Part shown: positions 752 to 8,438 of the stretch, in pieces
Layout of the letters: the number at the start of each line of letters is the position of its first letter
How positions within the stretch are numbered: position 1 is the first letter of the stretch
Source of the DNA: Nitrosovibrio tenuis
Lineage (GTDB): Bacteria; Pseudomonadota; Gammaproteobacteria; Burkholderiales; Nitrosomonadaceae
DNA: 44,945 bases
Direction of reading: 5' to 3'
Assembly (NCBI RefSeq): GCF_900109785.1
Contig: NZ_FOBH01000016.1
Coordinates: 1-44,945 of the forward strand
Notes under the pieces: generated by a model
What the model saw: the letters and a program-made list of their open reading frames with translations, nothing else
What the model was told of the DNA's origin: nothing
The model's database searches: none
Program-made: the position numbers and the translations under genes

Positions 752-796
752 TGGCGCCCTGAACACGAATCGAACGTGTGACCTACCCCTTAGGAG
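752..796. repeat. Left attachment repeat (tRNA-Arg 3' fragment)
   Basis: This 45-bp copy is identical to 8363-8407. It carries the CCA end, T arm and anticodon loop of tRNA-Arg but no 5' half, so it is the remnant left after integration. Identity stops at 797. Confidence 0.93.
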
Positions 797-912: not shown

Positions 913-1003
913 GGTTGCATTAAAAAGGTTGCACTATGGTTGCACAGGAGAACAACTCCTCATCTTCCGGCGTTTTAACCAGATAGCTTAGAGCTGTGCA
1001 ACC
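913..1003. repeat. GGTTGCAC sites at the left end (probable integrase arm sites)
   Basis: GGTTGCAC occurs at 927-934 and 938-945, a variant GGTTGCAT at 913-920, and an inverted copy at 996-1003 just before the integrase start. The 23 bases at 925-947 recur exactly at 8274-8296 near the other end in the same orientation. Short repeats just inside both attachment sites are typical of arm-type binding sites for the N-terminal domain of tyrosine integrases or for excision factors. The site near 1000 could also let the protein repress its own promoter. The function is inferred. Confidence 0.55.
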
Positions 1004-1030: not shown

Positions 1031-2191
1031 ATGAACCGTATTCGATTTACCAAAGCTGCTTTAGATGCGCTCTCCGTTGATTCGTCTGCTTCGCGGGTAG
1101 TCTACTACGACGACAAGGCGCGTGGACTTTGCATCATGGTTGCGCCACGTACCAAGACGTTCTACGTTCTCAGAAAGCATCAAGGCAAAACTGAGCGCAT
1201 CCTAATTGGGCGTTATCCTGATACCACAATCGAGCAAGCGCGAAATCGAGCGGGGCAGATCAACAGCGAGCTAGATGCGGGAAGGAATCGGAATGACGTA
1301 AAGCGCCAGCGTCGGGCAGAGTTGACCTTGGGAGAATTGCATACGATCTACATGGAGAGGCATGCAAAAACGCGCAACAGAAAGCCCGAGAATGCTGAAA
1401 ATAACTATAGAAGATACCTTTCGGAATGGGCCAACCGGAAATTGTCGGAGATAAAGCGCAGCGAGGTGCAGGTTCTCATTGCCAAGCTCGCAAAAGACAT
1501 AAGTCCTGCTACAGCAAATATCACGCTTGCCTTGTTGCGAGCAATGTTCAACCGCGCCATTGATTGGGAGTTATACAAAGGTGCGAACCCTACAGCCAAC
1601 ATTCCCACGTATCCAGAACTATCAAGAGATCGATTTCTATACGGTGACGAACTGGAGCGCTTCCTTGCAGCGCTGCCCAAGGTGGAAAGTGCAACAATGC
1701 GGGATTTCTTTACGATGCTACTCGCTACGGGTGCCAGAAAAAGCAATGTTGCGGCAATGCGCTGGGCTGATATTAATTTGAGTGCCGCGGTCTGGCGCGT
1801 TCCTGACACAAAAAATGGAGAGCCATATCAGGTGGCACTTACTGGCCCTGCTCTACAGATACTTAAACGCCGCCGTGAGGTAGAAAGGGGGGAATGGGTA
1901 TTCTCAGCGACGAGTAAAAGCGGACACATTCAAGAACCTAAAAAGGCGTGGAGTTCCTTGTTAAAGGATGCCCAAATCGAAAATCTGCGAATGCATGATT
2001 TGCGCCGCACGTTTGGCAGCTTTATGGCAGCGCAAGGCGCAAGCCTGCAAATGATTGGCAAGGCCCTAGGACATAAGAGTCAGGACGCCACACTGATATA
2101 TGCACGGCTAAACCTCGACCCGGTGCGTCAAGCAGTGGACGCGGCAGCGGCTGCGATGTTTCCGAATGCAACGGAGTTTGTTACAGAGTAG
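1031..2191 (+). CDS. Tyrosine-type site-specific integrase
   Basis: This 386-residue phage-type integrase should insert and excise the element at the tRNA-Arg site. The N-terminal 90 residues look like the arm-DNA-binding domain found in P4-like integrases. A SAM-like core-binding domain follows at about 95-180, then the catalytic domain. The tyrosine recombinase residues are visible: Arg236 (ATGARKSN), His322 and Arg325 (HDLRRTF), His348 (LGHKS) and Tyr357 (IYARL). It looks intact. The gene starts about 235 bp inside the left repeat and reads into the element. An unknown gene begins three bases after its stop, so the two are probably cotranscribed. Confidence 0.95.
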   Translation: MNRIRFTKAALDALSVDSSASRVVYYDDKARGLCIMVAPRTKTFYVLRKHQGKTERILIGRYPDTTIEQARNRAGQINSELDAGRNRNDVKRQRRAELTLGELHTIYMERHAKTRNRKPENAENNYRRYLSEWANRKLSEIKRSEVQVLIAKLAKDISPATANITLALLRAMFNRAIDWELYKGANPTANIPTYPELSRDRFLYGDELERFLAALPKVESATMRDFFTMLLATGARKSNVAAMRWADINLSAAVWRVPDTKNGEPYQVALTGPALQILKRRREVERGEWVFSATSKSGHIQEPKKAWSSLLKDAQIENLRMHDLRRTFGSFMAAQGASLQMIGKALGHKSQDATLIYARLNLDPVRQAVDAAAAAMFPNATEFVTE

Positions 2192-2194
2192 ACA

Positions 2195-3109
2195 ATGAGC
2201 GATAAATTGAATAAACCCGATCGCCTCAAGACGCATGCTGAGATTCTTAAAGAAACGTCGGAGATATTGAAGCAGCATGAGTTTCCAGCAAACTCCGAAC
2301 ATCCTGTACTGGAAAGATTCACAAAGTTTGGTGAGGTCTACACTCGGTTAAATCAGGAGAATGAGGCGCGAAAAAGCGCGGAGCAACGAGCAAAGGAGCA
2401 AGCAGAGAACACGCTGCGATGGGCACGGGAACGTGAAAATAAGGCGCAAGCCAAGACAGAAAAGGAGCGGTTACGACTAAAGGCGCTTTTTTCCCAGTGG
2501 TGCAAGCGGGATACCTGGCTGCTTCATGATGAGGCGATACCGCTAGTAAAGGGCTATGAGCCGACCACAGCATCTTTGTTAGTCGGATTCGACAATAAAA
2601 GCCTGGGGGAACTCGCTCAAAGCTGTGCCGGGCACTCACTTAAGGTCGTTAATCTCAACGAAAGGCAAAACTTGTGGCGGGTGGAACCGCGCGAATGGGC
2701 GCGCTGGCTTACGGAAAAAGGACAAGCTGTACCACAGGAGTTGATCGATATCTTGCTACCCAAACCGAACAACGCTGAACCTGAGAAGAAAACGACTCGT
2801 GCAACTCAGACTAGGGAGAGAAAAAAGCGCGACAAAATTGTAGCGCTTAAAAAGTTTCTGGCGGATGCGGGAGAGCGAGCAAGAAATGCGGGGTTAGACT
2901 GGGATGAGCAAGCTATACCAGTCACGAAAGATGAGTTCCTAGAAGTGTTTTGTCGTCAATATCCAAAAACTGAGCAGATTGGCGCTGACTCTTTTGATAG
3001 ATACATTAAAGAGATTGGAATAAAGTTTAAACACGGCGTTAAACATAAGTTAAACAACATGTTATTTCAACTGTTCAAAACTGCTAAAACTCCGAAAAGC
3101 TTCTCGTAA
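2195..3109 (+). CDS. Unknown coiled-coil protein coupled to the integrase
   Basis: I do not recognise this 304-residue protein. Residues about 50-95 are rich in Glu, Lys, Ala and Arg and should form a long charged coiled coil (for example EQRAKEQAENTLRWARER). The middle, about 105-180, is a compact region with Trp and Arg. After a basic linker near 195-220 a second small domain runs to the end and finishes with a lysine-rich tail. There is no signal peptide or membrane segment. Its ATG lies three bases after the integrase stop and a terminator overlaps its own stop, so int plus this gene look like a two-gene operon. A DNA-binding or partner role in recombination is possible but unproven. Confidence 0.75.
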   Translation: MSDKLNKPDRLKTHAEILKETSEILKQHEFPANSEHPVLERFTKFGEVYTRLNQENEARKSAEQRAKEQAENTLRWARERENKAQAKTEKERLRLKALFSQWCKRDTWLLHDEAIPLVKGYEPTTASLLVGFDNKSLGELAQSCAGHSLKVVNLNERQNLWRVEPREWARWLTEKGQAVPQELIDILLPKPNNAEPEKKTTRATQTRERKKRDKIVALKKFLADAGERARNAGLDWDEQAIPVTKDEFLEVFCRQYPKTEQIGADSFDRYIKEIGIKFKHGVKHKLNNMLFQLFKTAKTPKSFS

Positions 3110-3212: not shown

Positions 3213-3416
3213 ATGGAAAAGCAAGTTAAGCTGCTTACGGCAGATCAAGTTGCCGACATTCTCGGCGTTACCTCACACACTCTTGCCGTTTGGCGTTCAA
3301 CAGGTCGTTACTCGCTATCCTACGTAAAGACTGGGCGCTTAGTACGATATCTTGAAGCAGATGTTTTGAGCTTCATAGAACGTCGCACGCAAACACACAA
3401 TGCTTGTGGAGCATGA
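3213..3416 (+). CDS. AlpA/excisionase-like helix-turn-helix protein
   Basis: This 67-residue protein is a MerR-type winged HTH of the helix-turn-helix 17 or AlpA class. Residues 7-30 (LLTADQVADILGVTSHTL) form the HTH, the segment KTGRLVRYLEADVLSFIE is the typical wing and closing helix, and the last residues are a short tail. Small proteins of this type act as excisionase or activator of excision and replication genes in P4-like and other integrative elements. A ribosome site GGAG precedes the ATG by eight bases. Its stop overlaps the start of the DUF927 gene (ATGA), so the two are translationally coupled. Confidence 0.85.
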   Translation: MEKQVKLLTADQVADILGVTSHTLAVWRSTGRYSLSYVKTGRLVRYLEADVLSFIERRTQTHNACGA

Positions 3417-5209
3417 GGCCCAATATGACCACGCTGGAAAATATCGCTGGGGCTACTCACCCTGTTCCTGACGCGAAAGAGGAGGTAGGTTCGGACGCAC
3501 TGAAAATGCCTTGGAATGATGTAGCGTCCTTTATCCCGCAGGGCTTTAGCTTGGCAGTAGATGGTCTGTATCGCGAGACGAAAAACAACGATGAACGGCT
3601 ATCGGGCGCCGTATGGGTATCTGCGAAAACCCGCGACCCTCAGAGCGAGGAGTGGGGTATCGTCGTTGAGTGGATTGACCCAGATGGTAAACAGCATAAA
3701 CAAGCTTTTCCCCGTAACCTGTTACACGACAAGAGGGGAATTGCGTTAGTACAAGCGCTAAGTGCTGGCGGGCTGGAAGTCATACCTGGATGTGAAAATG
3801 CCGTGGTCAAATATCTCGGTAGTTTTGATATCCCAAATAGACTGCGTTCAGTAGCCCAACTGGGGTGGTTACGGGGTGAAGAACTTGTGTTTGTGTTGCC
3901 GCAAAAAGTAATCGGTAAAGACGCGAGTTCAAACATCGTTTATCAACCTGAGCGGTACAGTCCAACGTCTTCAACAATGGGAAGCCGTGGCACTCTAGCG
4001 CAATGGCAGATGAACGTGGCTATGCCATGCAAAAACAACGATTATCTTATTTTTGCCTTATGCCACTCCTTTGCAGGTGCGCTCCTCGAATTTTCAAATA
4101 TGGAAAGCGGGGGATTTCACTTGTACGGCGCGAGCAGTAAGGGAAAGACAACAGCGCTGCAATGTGCAGCTAGTGTATGGGGTAATGGAGCCGATCCAGC
4201 GGCCTCCCATGATTCCTACATTCGCAAATGGAATACAACCGGAAATGCACTCGAAGCGACGGCGGCGGCTCATAACGACGGAATACTGATTCTGGACGAG
4301 CTAGGGACGTGCTCGGTTCAGGACGTCGGAAAAATCGTCTACGACCTTTTTGGTGGGCAAGGCAAGGCTCGGATGGGTAAAGATGCATCGCTTCTTTCCC
4401 GACGCTCATGGCGCTCTGTAGGGCTATCAAGCGGGGAGGTATCAGTTCAACAGCGGATAGAGCGCGAAGGACGGCAGGTGGCACATGCTGGGCAATTAAT
4501 ACGGTTTATAGACATTCCGATAGATGGCGGCATAGTTCGGGACACCCACGGCCAAAGCTCATCGGCATTCGTTAAGCAACTTAAGGAGAATTCTGCGAAG
4601 TATTACGGTACTGCCGGGTCTGCTTTTCTGAATAAATTTATCAGGTACTTCGAGCATCATGAAAAGGCAATGCGCGAGGTTTGTGAAAGCATCCAATATT
4701 GGGTAACAGCAGTTGCGAATGCGCATGCAGGGTTAACAACGTTACAAGAACGCGCTTTACAACGTTTTTCACTTGTGAAAAGTGCAGGTATTCTTGCGGT
4801 CGAGCTCGAAATACTGCCCTTCAATATAAGGGAGATTGACGAGTCGATTTTAGGTGTTTGGCGGGCATGGCTTAACGATGCTAGCAATCTGAGCGACGCA
4901 GATCGAGGAGTAAGAAATGTGCGTGAATTTCTTCAAAGACACGGCTCATCTCGTTTTGACTCAGGGAAAAGCTACCAGCCAATTAGGGACTGTGCTGGCT
5001 TTTTACATAGAAACTTATTTCTTTTTACTGATGCCGGGTTTAAGGAAGCGTGTGGGGAATTTGATACTCGACAGGTTGCAGCAGAGCTTCTTAATCGCCG
5101 ATTACTGGTTATAGATGATGCTAATCGTTTTAAAAGTAGATTCTCCGTACCCGGGCAGCCTGGGCGGCAACGCTTGTATGCCGTTAGAGAGAGCATTTTG
5201 GAGGGTTGA
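3413..5209 (+). CDS. DUF927-family P-loop ATPase, probable replication protein of the element
   Basis: This 598-residue protein matches the DUF927 family found in phages and integrative elements, often in the place of a primase-helicase. A beta-rich N-terminal region of about 180 residues precedes an ATPase core. The Walker A motif is GASSKGKTT near residue 240 and the Walker B is ILILDEL near 291-297. The C-terminal 200 residues are mostly helical. I see no zinc finger or classical primase catalytic motif. I chose the ATG at 3413 because it overlaps the stop of the AlpA-like gene; a TTG at 3404 and an ATG at 3425 are alternatives. A role in replicating or unwinding the excised element is inferred from family and context. 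Confidence 0.85.
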   Translation: MRPNMTTLENIAGATHPVPDAKEEVGSDALKMPWNDVASFIPQGFSLAVDGLYRETKNNDERLSGAVWVSAKTRDPQSEEWGIVVEWIDPDGKQHKQAFPRNLLHDKRGIALVQALSAGGLEVIPGCENAVVKYLGSFDIPNRLRSVAQLGWLRGEELVFVLPQKVIGKDASSNIVYQPERYSPTSSTMGSRGTLAQWQMNVAMPCKNNDYLIFALCHSFAGALLEFSNMESGGFHLYGASSKGKTTALQCAASVWGNGADPAASHDSYIRKWNTTGNALEATAAAHNDGILILDELGTCSVQDVGKIVYDLFGGQGKARMGKDASLLSRRSWRSVGLSSGEVSVQQRIEREGRQVAHAGQLIRFIDIPIDGGIVRDTHGQSSSAFVKQLKENSAKYYGTAGSAFLNKFIRYFEHHEKAMREVCESIQYWVTAVANAHAGLTTLQERALQRFSLVKSAGILAVELEILPFNIREIDESILGVWRAWLNDASNLSDADRGVRNVREFLQRHGSSRFDSGKSYQPIRDCAGFLHRNLFLFTDAGFKEACGEFDTRQVAAELLNRRLLVIDDANRFKSRFSVPGQPGRQRLYAVRESILEG

Positions 5210-5267: not shown

Positions 5268-7082
5268 CTAGGCAAATCGTTTAAATAGATCAGCAAAATT
5301 TTCCGGGGGCACCTCAACAACGCTAGTCCCATGGCGAACATAATACTTCCCACCGTATATTGACGGCTGAGAATCAGATTCAAGTTTTAAAATGATCACG
5401 GTCTTATCGAAATACTTAACCGATGTGATATTCCGCGAAATATAGTCTTTATCCCTGGGGCTGATTGGCTCACTTTTGATTATTTGGGTTAACTTTCCAA
5501 AGTAAATATCAATATCGGAGTGATGCTTTATCGCCTCATCATTGATTCCAGTTATATAAAAATTCGAGAACTTTTTCGGTTTTGACTTATAAAATTTTTC
5601 GAATTTTAATGACGCCTCAGGATTGTCTGCAACACCAAGTATGCAGTAGCCTGTTGAATTAGGCAGAGTATTAGCCATTGCGGCTAAGGTTTTGATTATT
5701 TTAGAGAATAAAGTTTTATTAAATGTGCGATTTTCTTGGTCAAATGAATGTAAGCCAATCTTGAAGTCATACAACGCCTGCTCGGTAGATGACTGCATTA
5801 ATATGTTTTCAAACCTAGTAATCCAATGATTGCGGGCGGGATCATTTTGTTTGGTTTTTTGGAAACATCTACCTATAACACCGCATAGCGAATCGATGGC
5901 TGTCTGTTTTTCTTTTGCAGACCAATTTCCACCTCCTTGGCTCAGTTTGATTGTTTTATCTCCCGCCTTGTCGAGCGTTTTAACCAGTTTGTCAATGTCA
6001 ACAATCTCTCTGTCCTGTTCTATAAGCAACTCATACAGAGACAAATAGACAATCTGAAAATATCTTGGAATTCTCGCTTGCCGTTCTTCGAACAAAAGCC
6101 CGTTAAAGGTTTTTCCCGAGGCGGTTAGAATTTCGATGAGTTTGTCGAACACATATTGAATATTAGCTATCAATTGTTCTTCGTTTATCTTTTGAATTTG
6201 GAGCTCGACTTGGTTAGCTAGTGATAAGTCAGTGCTCGCCTCTTCCTGCTGAGCTAAACCATATAGCTGATCCAAAATATCAGAACTTGATCTTGTGTTT
6301 TTTTCCAGAGCTGCCCACGCCACAATATTCGCTACAATCTCCTCGTCTTTGGATTCCCTGAGATTCTCTTTTGTTATTATGTTGTTTTTTACCCAGAAAA
6401 TGTCAGAGACATTAATTCCGTAATCTAAGTTGCGGTTGGTTATGCTGATGTTTTTCATCGCGCTTAAATTCAGTACATCCGAAGCACTCGAATCGCCTCG
6501 AATGTTGCTGGAAAGTTTTCGCACGATAGAGGCAAACTTGCTAACTGCACCTGCTTGACGTAGTTCTTGTTTTGACAGGTGTCTGCCATTCGAATTTAAA
6601 CGTCTAAATACTTCATCCACATGGTTTTTACCAGTTTCAGGATAAACCGATAACGGAACTTGATAACGAACCAGGTTGGCGCACACGGTACGGTTCATTA
6701 CATTTTGCTTTTGGATAAGCTTTCCCGTGTCTTTAAGTAACTTTGTATCTGCCATGGTATCTAAATCGAAGTATTCACCATTAACGTCAAACTCTTGTTC
6801 GATAAACGATACAATTGCGTTTAGCCTTTGCATACCATCGATAATCTCTAGCAGCCTTTTGGGTGTGCTACTGGATATCTCTGCTAACAATACTAATGGC
6901 ACGGGATAACCTTTGATAATGGAATCTATAAACGATCTTTTTTCCTCAATTGTCCAAACGAGCTTGCGCTGGTACCTTCGGTTTACTAGGAAGGTATTTG
7001 CTAAATAATAGCCATATAAACTCTGAATACTTTCCCCTTTTATAGACATCTCCACTGCTTCTTTTTTTATATTCGAATTCAT
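5268..7082 (-). CDS. DUF262 nuclease-like and Schlafen AlbA_2 fusion; candidate defence protein
   Basis: This 604-residue protein has two recognisable parts. Residues about 15-190 are a DUF262 (ParB/Srx-like, GmrSD-type) domain, with a YQRKLVW motif, the signature IIDGMQRLNAI and a later RLNSNGRHLSKQEL segment. The middle is helical. Residues about 455-600 resemble the Schlafen AlbA_2 putative nucleic-acid or ATP-binding domain, with AAMANTLPNSTGYCILGVAD and a closing YYVRHGTSVVEV. DUF262 domains occur in DNA- and nucleotide-dependent restriction proteins, and AlbA_2 domains in several defence and tRNase-like proteins. The gene is AT-rich compared with its neighbours, stands alone and converges on the DUF927 gene. 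Antiphage function is inferred. The usual second Gln in the DGQQR motif is Met here. Confidence 0.8.
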   Translation of the reverse strand: MNSNIKKEAVEMSIKGESIQSLYGYYLANTFLVNRRYQRKLVWTIEEKRSFIDSIIKGYPVPLVLLAEISSSTPKRLLEIIDGMQRLNAIVSFIEQEFDVNGEYFDLDTMADTKLLKDTGKLIQKQNVMNRTVCANLVRYQVPLSVYPETGKNHVDEVFRRLNSNGRHLSKQELRQAGAVSKFASIVRKLSSNIRGDSSASDVLNLSAMKNISITNRNLDYGINVSDIFWVKNNIITKENLRESKDEEIVANIVAWAALEKNTRSSSDILDQLYGLAQQEEASTDLSLANQVELQIQKINEEQLIANIQYVFDKLIEILTASGKTFNGLLFEERQARIPRYFQIVYLSLYELLIEQDREIVDIDKLVKTLDKAGDKTIKLSQGGGNWSAKEKQTAIDSLCGVIGRCFQKTKQNDPARNHWITRFENILMQSSTEQALYDFKIGLHSFDQENRTFNKTLFSKIIKTLAAMANTLPNSTGYCILGVADNPEASLKFEKFYKSKPKKFSNFYITGINDEAIKHHSDIDIYFGKLTQIIKSEPISPRDKDYISRNITSVKYFDKTVIILKLESDSQPSIYGGKYYVRHGTSVVEVPPENFADLFKRFA

Positions 7083-7423
7083 TTAGCCAGTAGCCGCGTT
7101 GTGTAAAAAATAAATTGATCAGTAAGGAAAAATGCTTATCCCTCTTCTCACCAGTGCTGAGCTCGGCGCTCACTCGTAATTCGTGCTAGCTTAATTTCCT
7201 ACTATTGTTTTCTGTTGTCCACGTCCTCCTCAAATATAAAAAGCGATCGGCTATAAGCCAACATAATAACGGCAAATCCAACATAGTTCTGTATCCAGAA
7301 ACTCAACTGTATTTCCGATTGCTTAGCGGTTTATTGGACTCCTCAATAAGGCTAGCGTAATGACAGTTATAAAAAATGAACGAGTAGATAAGTAGAACAG
7401 TTTTCGTGCTGGATTGCTGCTCT

Positions 7424-7613
7424 GAGACAGTTGGGACAATTGGGATATATCGACCCACAACAATAAGTTAATGTTCTAACGCTCTAGACGGAGAAGGGGA
7501 CATACTGGGACAATGTCCCGTAATGTCCCTCTAGATAGAGTTATCGGGCCAACTGTTGCTCGACCGTAACATATTGACCTGTTGAACTTTGTCCCAAGCG
7601 TCTCAAGTGTCCC
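7424..7613. repeat. Symmetric GGGACA array (iteron- or operator-like), within a gene-free gap
   Basis: The gap between the XRE stop and the DUF262 start (7083-7628) has no gene but contains three ordered motif clusters. On the left, at 7424-7450, three 9-bp units read GAGACAGTT, GGGACAATT and GGGATATAT. In the centre, at 7497-7529, two GGGACA copies 10 bp apart face two TGTCCC copies 10 bp apart, making a 33-bp interrupted palindrome around GGGACAATGTCCC. On the right, at 7587-7613, three 9-bp units lie in inverse orientation (AAGTGTCCC, AAGCGTCTC, CTTTGTCCC). The whole is inverted about the centre. This could be an origin bound by an initiator or a cooperative operator for the nearby XRE regulator. 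Bases 7083-7423 show nothing else. Confidence 0.75.
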
Positions 7614-8267: not shown

Positions 8268-8296
8268 AGTTGCAAGGTTGCACTATGGTTGCACAG
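8268..8296. repeat. GGTTGCAC sites at the right end (probable integrase arm sites)
   Basis: GGTTGCAC lies at 8276-8283 and 8287-8294 with the same 11-bp period as at the left end, plus a weaker AGTTGCAA at 8268-8275. Bases 8274-8296 match 925-947 exactly. The sites lie between the XRE gene start and the tRNA, so they may also affect transcription of that regulator. Confidence 0.55.
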
Positions 8297-8362: not shown

Positions 8363-8407
8363 TGGCGCCCTGAACACGAATCGAACGTGTGACCTACCCC
8401 TTAGGAG
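8363..8407. repeat. Right attachment repeat inside the intact tRNA-Arg
   Basis: This is the second copy of the 45-bp repeat. It runs from the encoded CCA to the first base of the anticodon loop. The tRNA gene continues beyond it to 8438, so the element restores a complete tRNA at this end. Confidence 0.93.
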
Positions 8408-8438
8408 GGGGTTGCTCTATCCACTGAGCTACCAGGGC
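8363..8438 (-). tRNA. tRNA-Arg (anticodon CCT)
   Basis: This 76-nt tRNA folds as a full cloverleaf on the minus strand: acceptor GCCCTGG with TCAGGGC (one G-U pair), D stem GCTC/GAGC, anticodon stem ACCCC/GGGGT with loop CTCCTAA, T stem ACACG/CGTGT with TTCGAAT, discriminator G and encoded CCA. The anticodon CCT reads the rare Arg codon AGG. The gene is the integration target of the neighbouring element, which restores its 3' half. Confidence 0.96.

Follow-up and report, generated by a model that had tools for sequence, protein, structure and literature searches.

Which function can be assigned to a dense cluster of one short word in a gap between the genes of a small genomic island? The question is raised by the window analysed here, a stretch of 44,945 nucleotides from Nitrosovibrio tenuis (contig NZ_FOBH01000016.1, positions 1 to 44,945). 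Its first 8.4 kb contain a 7.6-kb island bounded by identical 45-bp copies of the 3′ end of tRNA-Arg(CCT). The cluster, an array of GGGACA words, is located between the start of a DUF262 gene and the stop of an XRE-family gene (Table 1). A previous sequence-only reading offered three functions: a replication origin, a large operator for the XRE regulator, or the recognition site of the DUF262-AlbA_2 protein. Judging from sequence comparisons, we consider the array very probably an iteron origin that serves the replication of a small, integrative and satellite-like island and is read by the DUF927 helicase.

In the 190 bp of the array (7424-7613), GGGACA occurs seven times exactly and three times in degenerate form. 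The exact copies lie at 7433, 7497 and 7507 on the forward strand and at 7514, 7524, 7590 and 7608 on the reverse strand. Two of the degenerate units carry one mismatch each (GAGACA at 7424, GGGATA at 7442), and the third, at 7599, reads CGTCTC on the forward strand, with two mismatches, and is kept in the 9-bp register. The resulting spacing is >9>9>, then >10>7<10<, then <9<9<. These coordinates and the three-part layout agree with the earlier description, whose count of at least ten motifs is fair with three of the ten being degenerate. The 33-bp palindrome with motifs 10 bp apart was correctly placed and spaced, but it is imperfect: 26 of its 33 positions equal their own reverse complement.

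The window as a whole is not enriched in the word (13 exact copies of GGGACA/TGTCCC observed, 17 expected); only the clustering is unusual, with seven of the 13 copies falling in the array. Within the 546-bp gap, 2000 dinucleotide shuffles gave a maximum of three GGGACA words and a best count of five for any 6-mer. No other 6-mer forms an equally dense cluster in the island, the next best having five copies. The DUF262 start is 342 bp from the array, which lies upstream of it, and 16 bp separate the array from the XRE gene. AT fractions of the spacers between the modules are 0.57 and 0.56, against 0.55 island-wide, and one 30-bp stretch reaches 0.67. One DnaA-box-like word is found in the gap region, at 7100.

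The gene content resembles that of PICI and PICMI satellites: the small island, bounded by att copies, carries an integrase gene, an alpA-like gene and a replication gene. No capsid or terminase domain occurs among the island genes scanned. The DUF927 protein is the one recognisable replication helicase encoded, and the likely ATG of its gene at 3413 is overlapped by the stop of the alpA-like gene. The gene for the 304-aa protein follows int at a distance of 3 bp; PICMI satellites have iolg, which overlaps int, in this position. Both island ends carry GTTGCA repeats and share a 23-mer (925-947 at the left). These repeats bear on the possibility that the array serves integrase/excisionase as a set of arm sites, or serves packaging. 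A satellite requires sites for both, and the array does consist of ordered repeats near an island end; however, the right att copy is ~750 bp away, beyond another gene, and the GTTGCA repeats are better arm-site candidates. We regard this explanation as highly unlikely.

Table 1. Positions of the island features in the window
Feature	Position	Strand	Remarks
left att copy	752..796	.	45 bp, tRNA-Arg 3′ end; 100% identical to 8363-8407
three GTTGCA repeats upstream of int	914..944	+	candidate integrase arm sites or XRE operator
tyrosine integrase	1031..2191	+	Pfam Arm-DNA-bind_3, Int_N, Phage_integrase
304-aa protein, directly after int	2195..3109	+	no Pfam match; fragment beside int in L037
AlpA-like small HTH protein, 67 aa	3213..3416	+	HTH_17 5.9e-9
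DUF927 helicase, proposed array reader	3413..5209	+	Pfam DUF927 1.6e-69; ORF open from TTG 3404
DUF262 (GmrSD_N) + AlbA_2 protein	5268..7082	-	Pfam; between rep and array
left iteron triple	7424..7450	+	forward units at 9-bp steps: one exact, the other two with a single mismatch each
central imperfect palindrome	7497..7529	.	four exact words, >10>7<10<; same exact pattern in L042-L047, L162, L163
right iteron triple	7587..7613	-	reverse units at 9-bp steps: two exact, the third with two mismatches
XRE-family HTH protein, 202 aa	7629..8237	-	Pfam HTH_31 3.9e-7
three GTTGCA repeats upstream of xre	8269..8293	+	
right att copy	8363..8407	.	within intact tRNA-Arg
tRNA-Arg(CCT), insertion target	8363..8438	-	

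Profile and fold comparisons both make the DUF927 helicase, the candidate reader of the array, a homologue of SaPIbov1 Rep and SCCmec Cch. A profile of the window protein and 61 viral relatives (62 sequences: 59 of 73 viral ORFs, those of L053 and L076, and the window's own) matched 8tch_A at 1e-107 and 5dgk_A at 4.9e-43, the C-terminal region included. For an AlphaFold model (mean pLDDT 84.8), the best fold matches were Cch and the initiation protein of SaPIBov1, followed by MCM helicases; a single-sequence prediction was useless (pLDDT 34.5). The Cch helix-turn-helix domain (Pfam HTH_56) is detected in 55 of the 62 aligned relatives. The C-terminus of the window protein stays below the Pfam cut-off and shows a weak match to a Cch-type C-terminal profile (E 0.0015 among 30 sequences). 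Single-protein scans of genome and viral contigs revealed no close full-length relative, and none at E ≤ 1e-80 was found among 399 genomes of the order except the window's own. A second DUF927 gene in the same genome (L002, G000:C13:92199-93767) is 37% identical and is followed by its own GGTAACA array. DUF927 fragments 59-92% identical to the window's occur in the same genome and another of the genus (L035:6768-7453, L036:286-1247), with no clear array remnant near these decayed pieces.

What is known of the homologous systems, cited here from excerpts of the papers, suggests how such an array could be used. In SaPIs, the iterons recognised by Rep stand just past the rep gene, and the direct repeats downstream of the Cch2 gene are a binding site of the protein's C-terminal domain (PMC7581432). 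A PICI origin directly follows the 3′ end of the initiator gene and has an AT-rich region between two sets of iterons; a PICI rep-ori segment replicates in E. coli and one origin drove a plasmid there (PMC6092414). In GN-PICIs, the origin is located downstream of pri (PMC10111431). The locus in the island resembles the SaPI and PICI origins (SaPIbov1 Rep-ori, EcCICFT073) in its homologous initiator helicase, 8tch being the SaPIBov1 initiation protein, and in the two opposed sets of short words, >9>9> and <9<9<, that lie 3′ of rep and here flank the palindrome. It differs in the word itself, in the central four-word palindrome between the sets, in lacking a clear AT-rich spacer and in the 2.2 kb with a cargo gene separating rep and array. 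Cch (5dgk), itself a DUF927 protein, is related to the window helicase in fold and sequence, whereas Cch2 belongs to another helicase family, and SCC elements, in contrast to the island, use large serine recombinases (excerpt of PMC10061031).

A closely similar plan was found in the Pseudomonas satellite phiAH14b, where 11 words 3′ of a DUF927 gene are arranged as >9>8> ... <9<8<, nearly the same symmetric design. The word is a different one (GGGAAC) and the array directly follows the gene with no cargo between. In the excerpted part of the phiAH14b paper, the DUF927 gene is called a helicase and neither an origin nor iterons are mentioned (PMC4936722). The earlier statement that no named system has this layout does not hold in view of phiAH14b and of the PICI/SaPI origins with their two iteron sets 3′ of the initiator.

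Are such arrays a general property of DUF927 loci? We gathered two sets of loci by protein, without using the motif, and scored an array where the 500 bp following the stop contained, in a span of 250 bp, at least five copies of one 6-mer. Arrays were present in 26 of 29 family loci, which were drawn from 55 places listed with fragments excluded, compared to 1/29 inside the genes and 2/27 further downstream; one of the latter two (L029) is apparently the locus's own array, displaced. The viral set gave 64 of 74 loci (in-gene control 3/74), 74 of the 80 loci being used after exclusion of six with less than 300 bp downstream, and two repeats being counted. No array was seen in 3 of the 29 family loci and 10 of the 74 viral ones. 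The word varies with the DUF927 subgroup and includes GGTAACA, GTAGGGC, TGTCGGAA, GTGGGGC, GTCGGGC, TGTAACA, GGGACA and others; at least four copies of GGGACA follow 12 of the 74 viral genes. Read from rep, the distal end consists of three reverse units exactly 9 bp apart (<9<9<) in 17 of 28 family arrays, counted on 28 of the 29 loci (L025 is without a word) with words picked per locus by hand after looking. The window array ends in the same manner and in the same orientation.

Named elements extend this picture. Six phage or plasmid stretches were examined of 24 matches listed; three of them, satellite phiAH14b and plasmids pMNOD05 and pSR-7, have an array no more than 500 bp away from DUF927. 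The threshold was not reached within 500 bp of the gene in pMaqPC2 and the phage clone L337. In a 10-kb Pseudomonas element (L338), six words are located ~660 bp from the DUF927 gene, past small genes. Loci sharing a word have C-termini modestly more alike than their cores explain (partial r 0.157, a value reached in 14 of 5000 label shuffles; kinship ignored). Column scores favour the C-terminus weakly, with 6 of the top 15 columns in a region of 105 out of 545. In few loci, a wing change from KN to KH accompanies the change from GTAGGGC to GTGGGGC. Apart from the work on SaPI, SCCmec and PICI elements, we found no account of word arrays at DUF927 genes in the literature outside subscription journals.

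The origin reading rests on these comparisons: the array shares the layout and orientation found in DUF927 relatives, and most protein-found DUF927 loci have a 3′ array. Among the functions offered by the sequence-only reading it is the one well supported, by the homology of the helicase and the 3′ arrays. In the mechanism we propose, the C-terminal winged-helix domain of the DUF927 protein would bind the GGGACA words after excision. The inverted triples and the central palindrome would then place two opposed helicase rings, which would open the DNA so that replication of the circular island starts. The DUF262-AlbA_2 gene would represent exchangeable cargo inserted between rep and origin. Counting against the origin reading are the lack of a clear AT-rich spacer, the XRE gene that adjoins the array in both islands (see below) and the fact that the array is not adjacent to rep. 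Indeed, 2,215 bp including the DUF262-AlbA_2 gene separate it from the DUF927 stop, whereas PICI and SaPI origins are immediately 3′ of the initiator. The weak C-terminal match of the window protein, its lack of a close full-length relative among the sequences scanned, the DUF927 loci in which no array was seen, the decayed pieces of L035 and L036 and the few words left in the sister island weigh in the same direction. By analogy, the array may work like a PICI/SaPI-type iteron origin that has been displaced from the helicase gene by cargo, and because of this displacement we file it as a variant of that type.

The distance from rep, together with the extra central module, would also fit a secondary control site, for incompatibility/copy control or partition, which is still read by the DUF927 protein. 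Satellite P4, which has two iteron-type sites with control function, provides a precedent. The island contains no second array of similar density, and therefore replication would under this explanation have to start elsewhere, at a site unlike those of the relatives. We judge it quite improbable.

A decayed sister island (L037) in another genome of the genus bears on the origin reading and its other alternatives. It preserves the order of the window's island: int, DUF927 fragment, other cargo, array remnant, XRE and att, with the same 45-mer at both ends. Its integrase pieces are 84-88% identical to the window's, fragments of the 304-aa protein are also present, and the XRE protein, 79% identical over 72 aa, adjoins the array remnant, in which just three exact words are left. 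The slot of the window's DUF262-AlbA_2 gene holds instead a gene for a SIR2-like protein of 669 aa (L037:5505-7514, SIR2_2), which PADLOC assigns best to a SIR2 model associated with short Argonautes (2e-62). L037 gave no DUF262 match. L170, from a third genome of the genus, retains the start of XRE together with the 45-mer; they stand at a tRNA-Arg(CCT) whose neighbour is again the MFS gene, at 84% identity. A second, different integrase lies directly beside the att copy of L037 (L037:2966-4315), from which islands appear to stack in tandem at the tRNA-Arg site.

The location of the array in the intergenic gap upstream of the DUF262-AlbA_2 gene would suit a site that the encoded protein recognises or uses for self-protection. 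The recognition site proposed earlier finds no support, because the sister keeps an array remnant, beside a SIR2-like gene, without a DUF262 match; arrays moreover generally follow DUF927 genes. We regard this explanation as very improbable. A large XRE operator controlling DUF262-AlbA_2 or other island genes fares somewhat differently. The XRE gene is 16 bp away and the DUF262 start 342 bp, palindromic words suit a dimer, and the XRE gene stands beside the array remnant in the sister as well. In the window, the array nevertheless lies 3′ of xre, outside its promoter, and better operator candidates exist in the GTTGCAC repeats, 11 bp apart, upstream of int and xre in both islands (4586-4602 and 10140-10156 in L037). 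Furthermore, most DUF927 loci examined have similar arrays while the XRE protein was found in just 3 of 125 family genomes, the window's own included. We therefore find the operator improbable, although the proposal retains the association of XRE and array.

With two different cargo genes in the same place, the rep-array interval behaves like a slot with exchangeable contents, as far as two cases of gene order can indicate. Both cargo proteins match defence-gene models, the PADLOC matches of the DUF262-AlbA_2 protein being NsnA (8e-22) and PD-T4-2_A (1.7e-19), and this gene is probably phage-defence cargo. A similar organisation is described for the PICMI satellites of Vibrionaceae, in which int, an int-adjacent gene, alpA and a replication gene are followed by a slot for defence genes, located after the primase. 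PICMI differ in being inserted at fis and in carrying a primase instead of a DUF927 gene, and iterons are not mentioned in the excerpt available (PMC10803314).

The search of related genomes suggested earlier recovered the layout 3′ of DUF927 genes, but the central pattern, with up to three mismatches, was found in 1 of 125 family genomes, the window's own. The pattern GGGACA-N4-GGGACA-N-TGTCCC-N4-TGTCCC is found exactly in 2 contigs of the GTDB collection, where ~0.001 would be expected by simple arithmetic on 24 fixed bases, and in 6 IMG/VR stretches. The latter do not count as six independent cases: L042, L043, L044, L046 and L047 are 86-100% identical around the palindrome, L045 standing apart. 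A looser pattern matched at least 120 viral stretches, compared to 2 for the reversed-word control. From these matches, 82 loci were taken (L042-L123, including the six with the exact pattern), and 46 ORFs were hand-picked because their 3′ end lies close to the array. Of these ORFs, at least two (L071, L109) look spurious. Together with the window DUF927 (47 ORFs), Pfam assigned AAA_25 to 33, Prim-Pol to 14, DUF3987 to 4 and DUF927 to 3, the window included, and so many looser-pattern arrays sit behind replication genes. Three of the loci have 20-27 exact GGGACA words in ~300 bp, far above the others (L090:776-1088, L107:542-819, L122:2372-2684).

AAA_25 replicases found by protein show a 3′ array in 53 of 77 loci (in-gene 4/77; three of 80 loci in which the gene reaches the stretch end were excluded). 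At least four GGGACA words occur in 19 of the 77, other words being GGTCTA, GCGTCC, CGCACG and ATCGTA. The idea of GGGACA as a single universal word of unrelated helicases was dropped; the words vary in both protein-found sets, and much of the GGGACA sharing hence stemmed from our own search pattern. In the pattern-found loci, the forward-pair and centre spacings are likewise biased, since the search pattern fixes both. Tandem spacing in AAA_25 loci peaks at 10-11 bp (31 picked of the 77); for this set and for the viral DUF927 set, loci were found by protein and words picked by script after looking. AAA_25 and Prim-Pol replicases of phage contigs share with the window the exact central palindrome and a similar spacing 3′ of the gene, but they represent another helicase class, and the C-terminal domains of the helicase classes have no detectable homology (hhalign probability at most 2.4).

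A joint reading is possible, though we hold it only tentatively and rather doubt it: unrelated self-loading helicases (DUF927, AAA_25, DUF3987) of phages, satellites, islands and plasmids might share an origin grammar of words spaced 8-11 bp apart in opposed sets, with a word that drifts with the C-terminal reader and, in islands like the present one, exchangeable defence cargo between reader and origin. If true, this drift would allow origin and reader to be paired from sequence.

For the island family, the array provides a concrete, testable candidate origin. The underlying rule is simple, a repeated short word 3′ of the DUF927 gene, and it located a candidate origin in the 26 of 29 and 64 of 74 loci; the DUF927 arrays of two plasmids and the viral AAA_25 arrays suggest that it is wider. 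Lastly, the order of rep, cargo and origin points to a slot in which probable defence genes are swapped while the XRE gene and the origin stay together.
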